A stretch of 36,097 bases of DNA from Sulfurimonas sp. (GTDB taxonomy: Bacteria > Campylobacterota > Campylobacteria > Campylobacterales > Sulfurimonadaceae): NCBI GenBank assembly GCA_002899765.1, contig PPDH01000016.1, forward strand, positions 36,243 to 72,339, read 5' to 3'. Below, piece by piece: positions 2,332 to 21,317 of the stretch. Every line of letters starts with the position of its first letter. Within the stretch, counting starts at the first letter, position 1. The translations under genes were made by a program, and so were the position numbers. The notes beneath the pieces were generated by a model. It was not told where the DNA came from and did no database searches. It saw only the letters and a list, made by a program, of their open reading frames with translations.

Positions 2332-3777
2332 ATGCAGGAAAACTTATACAATCTCGCTTTTGAGCGAAGCATCTTAAGTTCAATAGTCTTTGAACCAAGC
2401 CAATTTGACGAGCTTAGCGTTGCCCTTAGACAGGATGATTTTTACCTTCCTGCTCATCAAGACATCTTTAAAGCCATGACTCTTCTTCTGCAAAAAGATC
2501 AGCCCATCGATGAGGAGTTTATCAAAAAAGAGCTCATAAAGATGAAAAAGTTTGATGAGACGGTTATGCTTGAGATTCTCTCGGCAAACCCTATCTCAAA
2601 CACCAAAGCTTATGTTAATGAGATAAAAGACAAATCTCTAAAACGCCATCTTTTAACACTAACTACGGAGATAAAAAGAGTAACGGTAGAAGAGGAATTC
2701 TCAAGTGCGGAAGTTATCGACATAGTAGAGAAAAAACTCTATTAGATAACTCAAGACAACCAGACAAGCGACTTTAAAGACTCTCCAAAAATGACTTTTG
2801 ACACGATGGAGTACATCAAAGAGATGAAAGCCCGCGGCAACAGTGTGCTTGTCGGAGTCGATACAGGTTTTCATGAGCTAAACAAAATGACGACAGGCTT
2901 TGGCAAAGGCGACCTAGTTATCGTTGCGGCACGCCCTGCCATGGGAAAAACATCTTTTATACTCAACACCGTAAACAGCCTTATCACACAAGGAAAAGGT
3001 GTTGCGTTTTTCTCGCTTGAGATGCCTGCAGAACAGCTTATGCTAAGACTTCTCTCCATTCAAACTTCCATTCCTCTTCAAAAACTGCGTGTGGGAGACA
3101 TGAATGATGATCAGTGGAGCTCGTTAAACGGCGCGATTGACAAGATGAACTTTGCAAAACTTTTCGTTGATGACCAAGGCAGCATAAATATTAACCAACT
3201 CCGCTCAAAACTGCGAAAACTAAAAAACCAGCACCCAGAGATAGAGATAGCGGTAATCGACTATCTTCAAATCATGCAGGGGGTCGGGAGTCAAGACAGA
3301 CACCTGCAGGTCTCGGAAATCTCGCGCGGGCTTAAGATGCTTGCTCGTGAACTAAACATGCCTATTGTCGCGCTCTCACAACTAAACCGTGGTTTAGAGA
3401 GCAGAAACGACAAACGCCCTATGCTTAGCGATATCCGTGAATCTGGTTCGATTGAGCAGGATGCGGATATTATCCTATTTGTCTACCGCGACGACGTTTA
3501 TCTCTATAAAGAAGAAAAAGAGCGCGAAAAAGCGGCAAAAGCAGAGGGCAAAGAGTTTAATCCTACTTACATCGAAAAAGAGGAAGAGGACGCTGAAATT
3601 ATCATAGGGAAACAGAGAAACGGTCCGACGGGACATGTAAAACTTGTTTTTCAAAAGAAACTTACCCGCTTTGTGGACTCAACACCTAGAGCAGTTGAGA
3701 CGATTTACGAAAATGTGGACACCCGTTCGGCAAACATACATGTAGGCAACGATACAATATCCATGCCGCCGCTCTAA
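2332..3777 (+). pseudogene. dnaB: replicative DNA helicase DnaB, interrupted by an in-frame TAG
   Basis: DnaB is the hexameric helicase that unwinds DNA at the replication fork. The frame from ATG 2332 is open for 137 codons, hits TAG at 2743-2745, then continues in the same frame to TAA at 3775-3777. Read through, it is 481 aa, normal for the family. The first part is the N-terminal collar domain ending KKLY. The second part carries the RecA-like domain with Walker A (ARPAMGKTS, about residues 200-208), Walker B (VIDYLQIM) and the RESGSIEQDADI motif. The stop sits in the linker between domains. No Shine-Dalgarno sequence precedes the next in-frame ATG (2791). Since dnaB is essential, a base error is the likeliest cause; nonsense suppression or a split helicase are alternatives. 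Confidence 0.93.
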
Positions 3778-8128: not shown

Positions 8129-9331
8129 ATGATACGATTTTTACTTCTTTTTTTATTCACAACCTACCTTTTTGCTGCACAAGTTGAAACGTTTCGCTGG
8201 GGTGAGGGCGAAACATATCTGATGTTTTTAGAAAAAAACAATCTTCCGCTAAAACCGCTTTACTACAATCTTGATGAAGATGAGCAACAACTTAGTGAAG
8301 AGATCTATTCGGGAGTTAATTATCATATTTCAAGAGAAAACAACGGTCAAATTTCTCAAGTTTTTATACCATTAAACGATGAGTTGCAAATACATATCTA
8401 TAAAAACAAAGAAGAGTACTTTTTTGATACTCTGCCCATCATAAGTGAAACGAGAGTAGAGGCTTTCACACTCAAAATAGAGCATTCTCCATATCTTGAC
8501 ATCATAAGAGAGACAGGCTCTACAAAACTTGCAACTATTTTTGTCTCAAGCTTCAAACACTCTCTTAACTTTAAAAGAGATTTAAGAAAAGGCGATACGC
8601 TCGCCATGATATATGAGCAAAAATATCGTCTTGGCAAACCGTTTTCTATGCCTACGCTTAAAGCTGCCATGATAGAGATGAGAGGTAAAAAACACTATAT
8701 CTACCTCAATGACGACGGCAGATTTTACAATGAAGACGCAAAAGAAGTAGAGGGTTTTTTACTCGGTAATCCGGTCAGAGGGGCAAGAATATCTTCACAC
8801 TTTACAAAAAGAAGATACCACCCTATTTTAAAAAAATACCGCGCACATTTGGGAGTTGATTATGCTGCCTCGCGCGGAACTCCTATAGCAGCAGCAGGAA
8901 GCGGAAGAGTTGTTTATATAGGACAAACAAGAGGTTACGGCAAGCTGATTAAAGTGCAGCATAGCGACGGCTATTTAACTCTCTATGCGCATCAAAACTC
9001 TTTTAGAAAAGGGATAAAAAACGGCTCTTACGTAAAAAAAGGACAGATTATAGGTTACGTCGGCAGCACGGGTCTCTCAACAGGACCGCATCTTCATTTT
9101 GGGCTCTACAAAAACAATCAAGCTATCGACCCGCTTAGAGTCGTTCAAGTAGCTACAAAAAAACTATCAGGCAAAGACAAAACAGCATTTTTGCAACTAA
9201 AATCAAACTATGACGAGAGTATAAACTTGCATATTGCAAACGAGACAAGATATGCGAAACTTAACGATTCTGAACCTGTTTGTTATTTTTTCAACAAAGA
9301 GATTTGTTCAAACTCTATGAAAAATCTATAG
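8129..9331 (+). CDS. M23-family peptidoglycan endopeptidase (LytM domain)
   Basis: This is a zinc metallopeptidase that cuts peptide crosslinks in periplasmic peptidoglycan. The start at 8129 opens directly with a signal peptide (MIRFLLLFLFTTYLFAA); an ATG at 8111 would add six residues, and neither start has a clear Shine-Dalgarno sequence. The N-terminal half is an accessory region. The LytM domain in the C-terminal half has the zinc ligands HLGVDYAA (HxxxD) and HLHFG (HxH). Length near 400 aa and layout resemble the Helicobacter Csd3/HdpA cell-shape peptidase, so a role in cell curvature is plausible but inferred. Its 3' end overlaps priA by 17 nt. Confidence 0.93.
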   Translation: MIRFLLLFLFTTYLFAAQVETFRWGEGETYLMFLEKNNLPLKPLYYNLDEDEQQLSEEIYSGVNYHISRENNGQISQVFIPLNDELQIHIYKNKEEYFFDTLPIISETRVEAFTLKIEHSPYLDIIRETGSTKLATIFVSSFKHSLNFKRDLRKGDTLAMIYEQKYRLGKPFSMPTLKAAMIEMRGKKHYIYLNDDGRFYNEDAKEVEGFLLGNPVRGARISSHFTKRRYHPILKKYRAHLGVDYAASRGTPIAAAGSGRVVYIGQTRGYGKLIKVQHSDGYLTLYAHQNSFRKGIKNGSYVKKGQIIGYVGSTGLSTGPHLHFGLYKNNQAIDPLRVVQVATKKLSGKDKTAFLQLKSNYDESINLHIANETRYAKLNDSEPVCYFFNKEICSNSMKNL

Positions 9332-11291
9332 GATCCATATCTATTTCGGCAAGTCCGACCTTGCATGCAGCTATTGCTTTTATGAGATTTGTACTTTTAT
9401 CTGAGCGCAAAAGTATCTCAAATCTATACTTGTCCGCAACTCTCTCAATACCGCACTTTCCAAATCCCACTATCTCGATATTTGAAAAATTACGCAAATT
9501 TGAGAGCATCTCGTTCATAGCATCTGCAGCTTTTATACCGTTTTTATGAGAAAAAAGGATACGGCATAGTTTTTTATATGGCGGATAGAGCTCTTTTCTA
9601 TACTCATTTTCATCCTCTAAAAAATTCTCATATTTATTTACATAAGTACTGAAAAAATCCTCATTGAAACTTTGTACTAAAACTTTGGCATTCTCTTTTC
9701 GCCCGCTCCTTCCCGCTACTTGAATAAGCATGGAGAGAGCCTTTTCTCTAGCTCTGTAGTCGCTCATGCTAAGCATATTATCAAGCCCCAAAACTACCGC
9801 CAAAGAGACTCCATGATAGTCATGACCTTTACTAATCATCTGTGTACCGACAAGTATATCTATCTCTTTGTCGTTAAATCTCTTAAGCGTTTTTTTTAGC
9901 TTGTTTGATGTAGTGATAACATCTCTGTCAAACTGCTCGATAGCTGCTTCTTCAAACTCACTCTTTATATCTTTTACAACCTCAGCTGTTCCGAGTCTTG
10001 TACTTATAAGATTTGAGCTGCCGCACTCTGAACACTCTTGCGGTATAGCTTGAGCGAAATTGCAGTAGTGGCACTTAAGAGAGCGTGTTTTTTGATTGAT
10101 GCTCATACCGACGCTGCAAAATACACACTTGTAGTTATGTCCGCAATCCCCGCAGATGAGATACTTAAAATTTGCACGAGTAGGGAGAAAAAGTATCGCT
10201 TGTTCCTTTGCTTCTAACGTATTTTTTAAGCTGCCAAGTATCATCGGCGATAATTTTTCGTCACTGCGCTCATAGACAAACTCTTTGTTTGAACTAAAAT
10301 GTCCGCCTCTAAGTCTTACATGTGGAAATTTTACGTAAGTTGTCAAACTCGGCGTCGCACTCCCTAAAACAACTGGAATGTCATAAAGTTTTCCCATATA
10401 TATAGCTAAGTCTCTTGCGTTGTAGCGAGGGCGTGCGGATGATTTGTAACTGTCATCATGCTCTTCATCTACTACAATCAAATCCAAATCTTTTATGGGT
10501 AAAAATAGAGCCGAACGTGGTCCCGCTACTATTTTTGCACTTCCGTCATGGATAGAGGCAAGTGCACTTTTTTTCTGTTTAGGCGTTAGTTTTGAGTGCC
10601 ACATGACAACCGCATCACCAAAGTGCTTATGGAGTCTCTGGTTCATCTGCGGAGTAAGAGATATTTCGGGCATAAGGAAAATAGAGCGTTTTTTTTGCTC
10701 TATAATCGCTTCAAAATACTTCATATATATCTCTGTTTTTCCACTTCCCGTATCGCCAAAAAGAAGTGAGGTTTTATGCTTTTTTAAAAACTCCAATGCT
10801 TCGTTTTGTTTTGCTGAGAGGATTATGTTAGAACTCACATAATATTGCCGCGCTTCGCTCGCAATGACTGAATGTTTACTATTTTGAATCTCTTCTGTCA
10901 CTGCGAGGAACGAAGTTACGCGGCAGTCTTCGGATTTTTGAGATTGCCACGCTTCGCTCGCAATGACTTGCGGGATGTCACTCTGAACAAGATTTTGAAG
11001 CTCACACTCGTAACTCATCATAAGCCCAAGCGCTTCGCCGAGTGAGCAAAAATAGTATACGGAGATAAACCTTGCAAGGGAGAGTTGTTTTGAAGAATAA
11101 ACCGAGTTGTAGATTTCTAATATTTCATTTGTTTTAAAATCAGGCTCTTTACATGTAGCCAGCACAACCCCGTCAATTTCTCTGTTTTTTACCTTGACTT
11201 TGACTTTTGTACCGATATCTATTATGTTTTTACTCTGATATGTAAACGGTTCTAACGGAGAGTTTATAAGTGAGATATTATAGTAATTCAA
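9315..11291 (-). CDS. priA: primosomal helicase PriA, carrying a repeat-encoded insert
   Basis: PriA recognises stalled or recombination forks and reloads DnaB. The 658-aa protein has an N-terminal DNA-binding domain, Walker A GDTGSGKT at residues 179-186, the DEEH box (VVDEEHDDSYK), a zinc region of paired cysteines (CGDCGHNYKCVFC, CHYCNF, CSECGSS) and the late helicase motif QVAGRSGR. It is longer than I would expect because residues about 109-150 are encoded by three copies of a palindromic repeat. The insert lies in the linker before the helicase core, is free of stops and keeps the frame, so the enzyme may still work. The 3' end overlaps the M23 gene by 17 nt. Confidence 0.96.
   Translation of the reverse strand: MNYYNISLINSPLEPFTYQSKNIIDIGTKVKVKVKNREIDGVVLATCKEPDFKTNEILEIYNSVYSSKQLSLARFISVYYFCSLGEALGLMMSYECELQNLVQSDIPQVIASEAWQSQKSEDCRVTSFLAVTEEIQNSKHSVIASEARQYYVSSNIILSAKQNEALEFLKKHKTSLLFGDTGSGKTEIYMKYFEAIIEQKKRSIFLMPEISLTPQMNQRLHKHFGDAVVMWHSKLTPKQKKSALASIHDGSAKIVAGPRSALFLPIKDLDLIVVDEEHDDSYKSSARPRYNARDLAIYMGKLYDIPVVLGSATPSLTTYVKFPHVRLRGGHFSSNKEFVYERSDEKLSPMILGSLKNTLEAKEQAILFLPTRANFKYLICGDCGHNYKCVFCSVGMSINQKTRSLKCHYCNFAQAIPQECSECGSSNLISTRLGTAEVVKDIKSEFEEAAIEQFDRDVITTSNKLKKTLKRFNDKEIDILVGTQMISKGHDYHGVSLAVVLGLDNMLSMSDYRAREKALSMLIQVAGRSGRKENAKVLVQSFNEDFFSTYVNKYENFLEDENEYRKELYPPYKKLCRILFSHKNGIKAADAMNEMLSNLRNFSNIEIVGFGKCGIERVADKYRFEILLRSDKSTNLIKAIAACKVGLAEIDMDPIDFS
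10844..10967. repeat. three palindromic-repeat units inside priA
   Basis: Units sit at 10844-10868, 10897-10928 (inverted) and 10940-10967. The shared core is CGCTTCGCTCGCAATGAC, and the middle unit is the related inverse form beginning TGTCACTGCGAGGAACGAAG. On the coding strand the outer units read VIASEARQ and VIASEAWQS. The same core recurs at 13809-13837. Alternating orientation would let the RNA or single-stranded DNA fold into long stems. Confidence 0.85.
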
Positions 11292-11787: not shown

Positions 11788-11854
11788 AAAAACCTTACAT
11801 AATAATTTTAAAATTATTCTAAAATAACTTGAAAATAATTACCTTGTATATGCA

Positions 11855-11876
11855 TTCCCACGCAGGAGCGTGGGAA
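11855..11876. repeat. 9-bp perfect palindrome between the pilin genes
   Basis: TTCCCACGC at 11855-11863 and GCGTGGGAA at 11868-11876 flank a 4-nt loop. GC content is far above the surroundings. No T-run follows on the minus strand, so it is a poor terminator. It resembles the short GC-rich interspersed palindromes scattered through many bacterial genomes. Confidence 0.75.
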
Positions 11877-11885
11877 CGAGAAAAA

Positions 11886-13808: not shown

Positions 13809-13890
13809 GAGATTGCCGCGCTTCGCTCGCAATGACGGGGTTGGTAAATTGCCGCACTTGTCGTTGCGAGGCATAAGCTGCGGCAATCTC
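13809..13890. repeat. inverted pair of palindromic-repeat units between fliE and ftsI
   Basis: A direct unit at 13809-13837 (GAGATTGCCG, then CGCTTCGCTCGCAATGAC) faces an inverted, diverged unit ending GCGGCAATCTC at 13890. The second unit is itself bounded by ATTGCCGCA (13848-13856) and TGCGGCAAT (13879-13887). The pair could form one long cruciform. The core is the same as in the priA insert. Small frames read through it are spurious. Confidence 0.85.
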
Positions 13891-19226: not shown

Positions 19227-21317
19227 CTAACCGTTTCTCTTTTTAATGATCTCTTCAGATACATTTTTCGGAACTTCTTCATAGTGATCAAATTCCATAG
19301 AGTACGTTGCTCTACCTTGAGTAGCAGAACGAAGGTCTGTTGAGTAACCAAACATCTCAGCAAGAGGAACGAATGCATCAACAATTTTGTTTCCGCTTCT
19401 ATCGCTCATCGCGTTGATTTGTCCACGACGACGGTTAAGGTCACCGATAACATCGCCCATGTAATCTTCAGGAACTTCTACTTCTACTTTCATCATTGGC
19501 TCTAAAATTGAAGGGTTTGCTTTTCTACAACCCTCTTTAAAGCCCATTGAAGCAGCAAGTTTAAATGCCATCTCATTTGAGTCAACTTCATGGTATGAAC
19601 CGTCATAAAGTGTAATTTCAACGTCTTCCATCGGGTAACCTGCAAGAACACCGTTAGCCATAGTTTCAGAACAACCCTTCTCTACTGCCGTGATATACTC
19701 TTTTGGAATTACACCACCCTTAATTTCATTATGGAAAACAAAGCCTGTACCAGCCTCGCCCGGCTTAATTCTAAGGTAAACGTGACCAAAAGCACCGCGT
19801 CCACCAGACTGTTTCGCGTATTTATACTCTTGTTCAACTTCTTTTTTGATAGTTTCACGGTAAGAAACTTGCGGAGCACCGACTTCAGCTTCTACTTTAA
19901 ACTCTCTTTTCATACGGTCAACAAGAATTTCAAGATGCAATTCACCCATTCCTGAGATAATCGTTTGTACTGTCTCTTCGTCAGTATGAACTCTAAATGA
20001 TGGATCTTCTGCAGCAAGTTTACCAAGTGCTAGTCCCATTTTCTCTTGATCGGCTTTTGTTTTTGGTTAAACCGCAACAGAAATAACCGGCTCAGGGAAT
20101 ACCATACGCTCTAGCACAACAGTCTCTTCTGAATCACAAAGAGTATCACCTGTAGTAGTATATTTAAGACCGACTACTGCACCGATTTCGCCTGCATAAA
20201 TCTCTTTAACTTCTTCACGCTTAATAGCATGCATCTTCACGATACGGCCAATACGCTCTTTTTTATCTTTTGTAGAGTTATGAACGAATGAACCCGCTTC
20301 TAATGAACCACGATAAACACGGATAAAAGTCAATGTTCCAACGAATGGGTCTGTCATAATTTTAAACGCCAAAGATGCAAACTTACCGTTATCAGTAGAT
20401 GGAACTACAACTTCTTGTTCTTCATCATCCATCATAGTACCCTTAATCGGAGCACATTCGACAGGAGAAGGAAGATACGCAACAACTGCGTCAAGAAGAG
20501 TCTGAACACCTTTATTTTTAAATGCCGTTCCTGCAGTCATAGGAACTATATGCATAGCTATTGTTGCAGCTTTAATTCCTGCAATAATTTCATCTTCAGT
20601 AAGCTCTTCACCTTCAAGATATTTTTCGGCAAGTTCTTCATTTCCGTCAACTTCAGAGATTGATTCAATCATTTTTTCACGATACTCTGCAGCTTTATCC
20701 AGCATATTTGCCGGAATCTCTTCTACATGGTAATTTGAACCCATTGCAGCATCTACATCCCAAACAATAGCTTTCATCTTAACAAGATCTACAATTCCTG
20801 CGAAACTATCCTCTGCACCGATTGGCAGTTGGATTGGAACCGGATTGCCTTTTAAGCGATCACGAATTTGAGCTTCAACTTGATAAAAATCAGCGCCCGT
20901 TCTATCCATTTTGTTAACAAATACAATCGATGGTACGCCATAACGATTTCTTTGTCTCCATACAGTTTCAGATTGCGGCTGAACACCACAAACAGCACAG
21001 AAAACTGAAACAGCACCGTCAAGTACACGCATAGAACGTTCAACTTCAATAGTAAAGTCAACGTGACCCGGAGTGTCTATAATGTTAATTTGTTTGCCGG
21101 CCCATTCACAAGTTGTTGCAGCTGAAGTAATTGTAATACCACGCTCTTGCTCTTGCTCCATCCAGTCCATTGTAGCAGCGCCGTCATGAACCTCGCCGAT
21201 TTTATGCTCACGACCCGTATAGAATAAAATTCTTTCAGTTGTTGTCGTTTTACCTGCATCAATGTGAGCAGCGATACCGATGTTTCTTACGTCTTCTAGT
21301 TTATGTGATCTTGCCAT
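19227..21317 (-). pseudogene. fusA: elongation factor G, interrupted by an in-frame TAA
   Basis: EF-G is the GTPase that drives ribosomal translocation and, with RRF, recycling. From ATG 21317 the frame runs 416 codons, meets TAA at 20067-20069, then continues in frame to 19227. Read through, it is 696 aa, normal length. The first part has [28 protein letters not shown] and domain II. The second part has domains III-V, including [13 protein letters not shown]. The stop replaces the Glu of the near-universal [14 protein letters not shown], close to the domain II/III boundary, so GAA to TAA is the simple explanation. The next in-frame ATG (20039) has only a weak AAGAG upstream. fusA is essential and no second copy is in view, so a sequence error is likeliest. 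It lies 11 nt after rpsG. Confidence 0.94.

Follow-up and report, generated by a model that had tools for sequence, protein, structure and literature searches.

The priA gene of Sulfurimonas has probably received REP-type palindromes by recurrent in-frame insertion, and the repeats have been kept by a permissive linker of PriA that is predicted to be disordered. Of 87 linkers from full congeneric priA genes, 40 contain one or more of six palindrome families (F1, F2, F3, F4, F5/F7, and F6), versus 0 of 1391 segments of equal length elsewhere in the same genes. The linkers themselves contributed to the definition of these families, and therefore independent checks, such as the dispersal of the repeats in the genomes, matter.

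F1 repeat units in priA and in the source genome

The window, i.e., the whole stretch of 36,097 nucleotides that was analysed, belongs to the source genome G000, which has a length of 2.39 Mb, consists of 45 contigs, and is 98% complete. The priA gene (9315-11291, minus strand) is one open frame of 658 codons with TTG as the listed start. Pfam domains of its product are the 3'BD (residues 14-92), the DEAD helicase (161-317), the Zn ribbon, Helicase_C, and PriA_C. The original prediction placed three palindromic units within priA at 10844-10967, and they were indeed found there, as two exact matches to the repeat core and one inverted, diverged unit. In the coding order, unit A (10967-10940, minus strand, in the sense of priA) encodes VIASEAWQS, unit B (10930-10897, inverted, i.e., on the plus strand, and more diverged than the other two) encodes DCRVTSFLAVT, and unit C (10868-10844, minus strand) encodes VIASEARQ. 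Units A and B pair as one long hairpin (-19.2 kcal/mol with DNA parameters). The addition of about 40 residues without a stop or frameshift, which had also been predicted, amounts to 41 residues, VIASEAWQS-QKSE-DCRVTSFLAVTEE-IQNSKHS-VIASEARQ.

The 18-nt F1 core CGCTTCGCTCGCAATGAC is present in exact form at 10851-10868 and 10950-10967, both in priA, and at 13819-13836. Three exact copies in the window compare with 0.01 expected, and no shuffled sequence gave three. The intergenic repeat reported at 13.8 kb is this third core copy, which together with a second F1 unit makes up an inverted pair (13809-13890). A probable decayed F2 copy (10977-11001, plus strand), weak at up to six mismatches, encodes ELQNLVQSD where relatives have EILNQVQDD, and an intergenic palindrome (11850-11880, plus strand) belongs to F3, a family seen in the priA linker of relatives. 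Elsewhere in the window, dnaB (2332-3777, plus strand) and fusA (19227-21317, minus strand) are each interrupted by one in-frame stop (TAG at 2743 and TAA at 20069, respectively), the frames being otherwise open. These stops are probably consensus errors of the draft; otherwise, essential genes have been hit by nonsense changes.

With up to three mismatches, the F1 core has 59 copies in the genome, mostly intergenic, versus none for the reversed control. In 51 of the 59 copies, GTC is preceded by C or T, which makes a CGTC/TGTC tag. The unit folds into a 5 + 3 bp stem with an interior loop and a terminal loop of 3 nt, and its tail is CTC or CTA, not CCA, in most copies among those listed. Five of the six reading frames of the F1 monomer (about 28 bp) are open, and most F1 clusters in G000 have no long open frame across them in the stretches fetched around the copies. 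On such fetched stretches, which may miss intragenic copies of greater divergence, in-frame F1 was detected in three genes other than priA, all of them absent from the original prediction: a sugar epimerase (two sites), an M10-type peptidase, and an MBOAT acyltransferase. The frames used by these intragenic copies differ (VIASEAKQS, DCRASLAVT, and SHCEERSDAA). Two matches with three mismatches, L088:4070 and L090:4039, lie in genes with no repeat context and were taken as chance. A dense F1 cluster with many copies 23 nt apart can be noted at L078:8979-15355, around S-layer and secretion genes (DUF4214, M10 peptidase, and ABC exporter).

Among 135 congeneric genomes, F1 is abundant in six (17-81 copies) and sparse in the others. 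It lies within the priA linker of G000, G061, G120, G132, G103, and G131, and also of G063, beside an assembly gap.

The PriA linker and its palindrome families

The linker joining the 3'BD to the helicase (residues 98-151; 10839-11000, minus strand) has an AlphaFold2 pLDDT below 50 in a model whose input was 37 sequences, the window PriA and named relatives. The value is about 30 in the insert and linker and about 90 in residues 1-90 and the first helicase residues. The insert is predicted to be disordered between two well-folded PriA domains. The G000 linker has 71 residues versus 25-32 in most of the congeners in which no repeat was recognised. The predicted fold matches the PriA of E. coli and Klebsiella; the E. 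coli winged-helix deletion protein ranks second among the matches. In E. coli PriA, a winged helix separates the 3' DNA-binding domain from the helicase. Because Walker A begins 45 residues later in E. coli PriA (8fak) than here, despite the 41-residue insert, Sulfurimonas PriA appears, from lengths and the model, to have no winged helix of the E. coli type.

PriA was located in 123 of the 135 congeneric genomes, an uneven sample of the genus in which many genomes are metagenome drafts. When the protein is aligned with its relatives, those without such repeat DNA carry other residues at the site. The idea that the insert is peculiar to this species was rejected, as the linkers of other congeners also bear repeats, and at least five other palindrome families occupying the same linker in related species are missing from the original prediction. 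DNA hairpins with z < -2 were found in 33 of 83 linkers versus 4 of 165 flanking control segments. Of the 87 linkers, 47 contain no recognised family, and many have no hairpin. Sampled members of the order's other families have short linkers without these repeats.

The families that were checked are scattered repeats in their own genomes. F2 (GTCATTCTGAACTTGATTCAGAATCT), with a perfect 8-bp stem and a 5-nt loop, occurs 38 times in G015 and 31 times in G077, and both genomes have F2 in priA. F3 (GCATTCCCACGCGGAGCGTGGGAACGAG) has eight copies in G004, one of them in priA; F4 occurs 18 times in G033 (two of them in priA) and twice in G032 (one in priA). A pooled search indicated that the remaining families are dispersed in their carrier genomes as well, G069 giving only one match. 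Six frames of F3 and five of F6 are open; the linker copies of both occur in a single polar frame and orientation, which could reflect old shared insertions. In G020 (L039, G020:C32:3274-5132), priA is broken (stop or frameshift) at the very place at which an F3 palindrome separates the two halves, which could be explained either by a failed insertion or by a draft error.

PriA is not the only protein affected; the assumption that priA is the sole gene concerned was rejected by the epimerase alignment. In the sugar epimerase (L083:3588-4721; L353-L362), two loops are filled by F1 or F2 in different species: F1 was found in G000, G132, and G103, F2 in G061, and another F1 frame in G120. The alignment revealed no repeat at the second loop in G114, and the G077 epimerase contains a decayed F2-like stretch.

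Turnover and origin of the linker repeats

On a PriA tree built without the linker, parsimony counts, which are blind to gain versus loss, give at least 22 changes in the presence of any repeat; for single families, the counts are 5 for F1, 9 for F2, 8 for F3, 1 for F4, 13 for F5/F7, and 5 for F6. The two 300-nt flanks of the linker are 91.5% and 94.7% identical between the sisters G077 and G031, and the linkers themselves (76 versus 26 residues) are 58% identical and unrelated. Similarly, the flanks of the sisters G117 and G091 are 92.3% and 88.0% identical, while the identity of the linkers is 43%. A single clean in-frame indel of 72 nt with a palindrome at its boundary distinguishes G071 from G098. 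The repeats in the priA linkers of G077 and G033 are exact consensus copies, and that of G004 is identical to another copy in its own genome. F1 in the G131 linker is read in a different frame (RHCERSEAIS). The spacer CTCAAAAATC around the F1 units is common to G000, G061, and G120; therefore, that F1 insertion is shared by descent. Neither an insertion event nor a target-site footprint was seen.

Candidate mobilising genes were found for two families. F3 lies on both sides of a RAYT-like gene of 194 aa in G153 (L206), and F6 on both sides of one of 185 aa in G061 (L211); in G004, F3 coordinates likewise lie on both sides of a Y1 match. The layout in which repeat copies flank a RAYT gene on both sides is named a REPtron. 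For F1, the search revealed no intact HUH gene with F1 copies around it. A Y1-SapC fusion of 462-477 aa, with a Y1 transposase-like domain, is encoded in all six F1-rich genomes (L078:13776-15161 in G000; L205, L199, L200, L203, and L210), and F1 adjoins the gene in four of them. The SapC part was identified by Pfam in G000 and is presumed in the others from length and N-terminal similarity. The G000 gene also has an in-frame TAG. Since the HUH motif is missing, the fusion is not claimed as the F1 transposase. The lack of a detected HUH gene for F1 agrees with Di Nocera et al. (2013, PMC3733652), who describe CGTC REPs as having no dedicated transposase.

Recurrent insertion would proceed as follows. 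REP-type short palindromes would spread in Sulfurimonas genomes, landing mostly between genes, and the disordered PriA linker would be one tolerated intragenic landing place. Units may enter by transposition, with RAYT/HUH enzymes for F3 and F6, or by repeat-mediated recombination; presumably only in-frame, stop-free, and polar outcomes survive, and decay and slippage deletion may later remove the repeats. The outcome would be a linker sequence of fast turnover made from mobile DNA. For the function of PriA, this turnover is probably almost neutral. We infer that the repeats are mobile and that PriA functions with the insert.

The copy numbers in the linker may point to more than tolerance. 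F1 was observed there 6 times versus 0.17 expected, F2 7 versus 0.40, F3 6 versus 0.03, and F4 2 versus 0.014, the expectation using identical patterns for linkers and genomes and assuming that all copies lie in a noncoding fraction of 8% and that the linker is equally open. The species are related, and therefore the probabilities of this comparison are too small. Since the repeat density is far above that of noncoding DNA, tolerance alone may not suffice, and the main rival is a linker that is a preferred target, in which an existing palindrome or a hairpin single-stranded at replication attracts more units, and families stack or replace one another beyond what tolerance gives. Two or more families per linker (G061, G132, G131, G103, G157, G113, and G077) are consistent with such targeting, as is the complete genome of G077, where none of the other F2 copies (up to four mismatches, 19 fetched regions) was found in an ORF of at least 120 aa. 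However, the 8% fraction is assumed, the species are not independent, and better retention in the linker than between genes may mimic targeting. The epimerase loops, moreover, behave alike without any PriA-specific feature; for this reason, we prefer recurrent insertion with survival in permissive loops and regard targeting as rather unlikely. We put forward only tentatively the broader proposal of a genuine hot spot, in which palindromes of unrelated families are inserted into the PriA linker, or kept there, in preference to other sites and mobile DNA continually rewrites a disordered segment as the genus diversifies.

Retention for a function, be it control of priA by a hairpin in the DNA or mRNA or a benefit of greater linker length to PriA, is improbable. 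The single polar frame of all F3 and F6 linker copies, despite six and five open frames, argues for it, and so do F1 units that seem, by inspection of the sequences, less diverged than their flanks between related species. The linkers themselves argue against it: more than half lack a recognised family, many lack a hairpin, they differ freely in sequence, length (25-110 residues), and family, and those sampled in other families of the order are short and repeat-free. There is also little chance that each family was inserted once, long ago, and then inherited vertically with many losses. The common spacer of G000, G061, and G120 would fit this history, and parsimony cannot tell gain from loss; however, a linker of about 25 residues cannot have contained all six families from the start, and the exact-consensus copies of G077 and G033, the own-genome match of G004, and the deviating frame of G131 also speak against it. 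That the insert is an artefact of assembly or annotation, or that this priA is a pseudogene, is very improbable. The stops in dnaB and fusA do point to draft base errors or nonsense changes in the window, but repeat-bearing linkers are present in the single-contig genomes G077, G010, G157, G116, and G150, the frames are open in many independent assemblies, and the helicase and zinc motifs are all invariant in the PriA alignment. Recurrent insertion into a permissive linker remains the best explanation.

Comparison with known systems

Rickettsia palindromic elements (RPEs), to which the original prediction likened the priA repeats, are described in a 2024 review (PMC10969869, citing Ogata 2000, 2002) as inserted in frame in many genes, and RPE-4 and RPE-6 are classed as CGTC REPs in PMC3733652. 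The comparison is apt, given the tag-like sequence of most F1 copies. The data support a dispersed palindromic repeat that is read through in frame and serves as a linker, although the phylum is only distantly related to Rickettsia. Like RPEs, the Sulfurimonas repeats are dispersed palindromes in frame in unrelated protein genes, have several usable frames, and carry the CGTC tag. Open in-frame insertions, as with RPEs, were found in G000 in priA, at both epimerase sites, and in the M10 peptidase and MBOAT genes. Unlike RPEs, they belong to another phylum, are REP monomers or dimers of about 28 bp, and enter one linker as several families across species.

According to PMC3733652, CGTC REPs have an unpaired CGTC (or TGTC/CCTC) end tag, a stem of 8-9 bp that starts with A-T, a loop of 4-5 nt, and a CCA tail. 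The Sulfurimonas repeats share the CGTC/TGTC tag, the inverted dimers, the mostly intergenic location, and the occurrence of some copies in replication and repair genes, and they seem to share the AT-starting stem. F2 also shares the 8-bp stem and 5-nt loop, whereas F1 differs in its interrupted stem and in CTC instead of CCA. With respect to REPIN/RAYT systems, F3 and F6 flank RAYT-like genes on both sides and F1 forms inverted pairs; for F1, however, no cognate HUH-bearing RAYT was found, the Y1-SapC gene beside it in four genomes being without HUH. No Campylobacterota case and no mention of priA were found in the excerpts of PMC3733652. A literature pattern search for CATTGCGAG returned only primers and unrelated papers, and no description of one protein linker repeatedly colonised by several families across a genus was found in the open-access literature, which is weak evidence.

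Parasitic repeat DNA appears to become protein sequence at one spot in many Sulfurimonas species. Protein-coding palindromes have hitherto been treated as a Rickettsia peculiarity; the 2024 review leaves undecided whether other prokaryotes use the same route of protein evolution (PMC10969869). With dozens of natural replicates at a single linker, several families whose copies are exactly like the dispersed ones, sisters that differ, and single-contig genomes, it becomes a testable question how often mobile DNA turns into disordered protein sequence and what filters it passes.

A close parallel is Xanthomonas recB. According to PMC3733652, intragenic REPs are often in replication and repair genes, some of which are the only REP-bearing genes of a species, and different REPs occupy about one shared site of recB in two species. 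The PriA linker resembles this case in that different REPs occupy one place of a replication/repair gene in related species, but the present case extends over 40 of 87 species and six families. The phenomenon is of a kind already known from Rickettsia RPEs and intragenic REPs (Di Nocera et al. 2013); what appears new is its occurrence in Campylobacterota and the recurrence of many families at one site.
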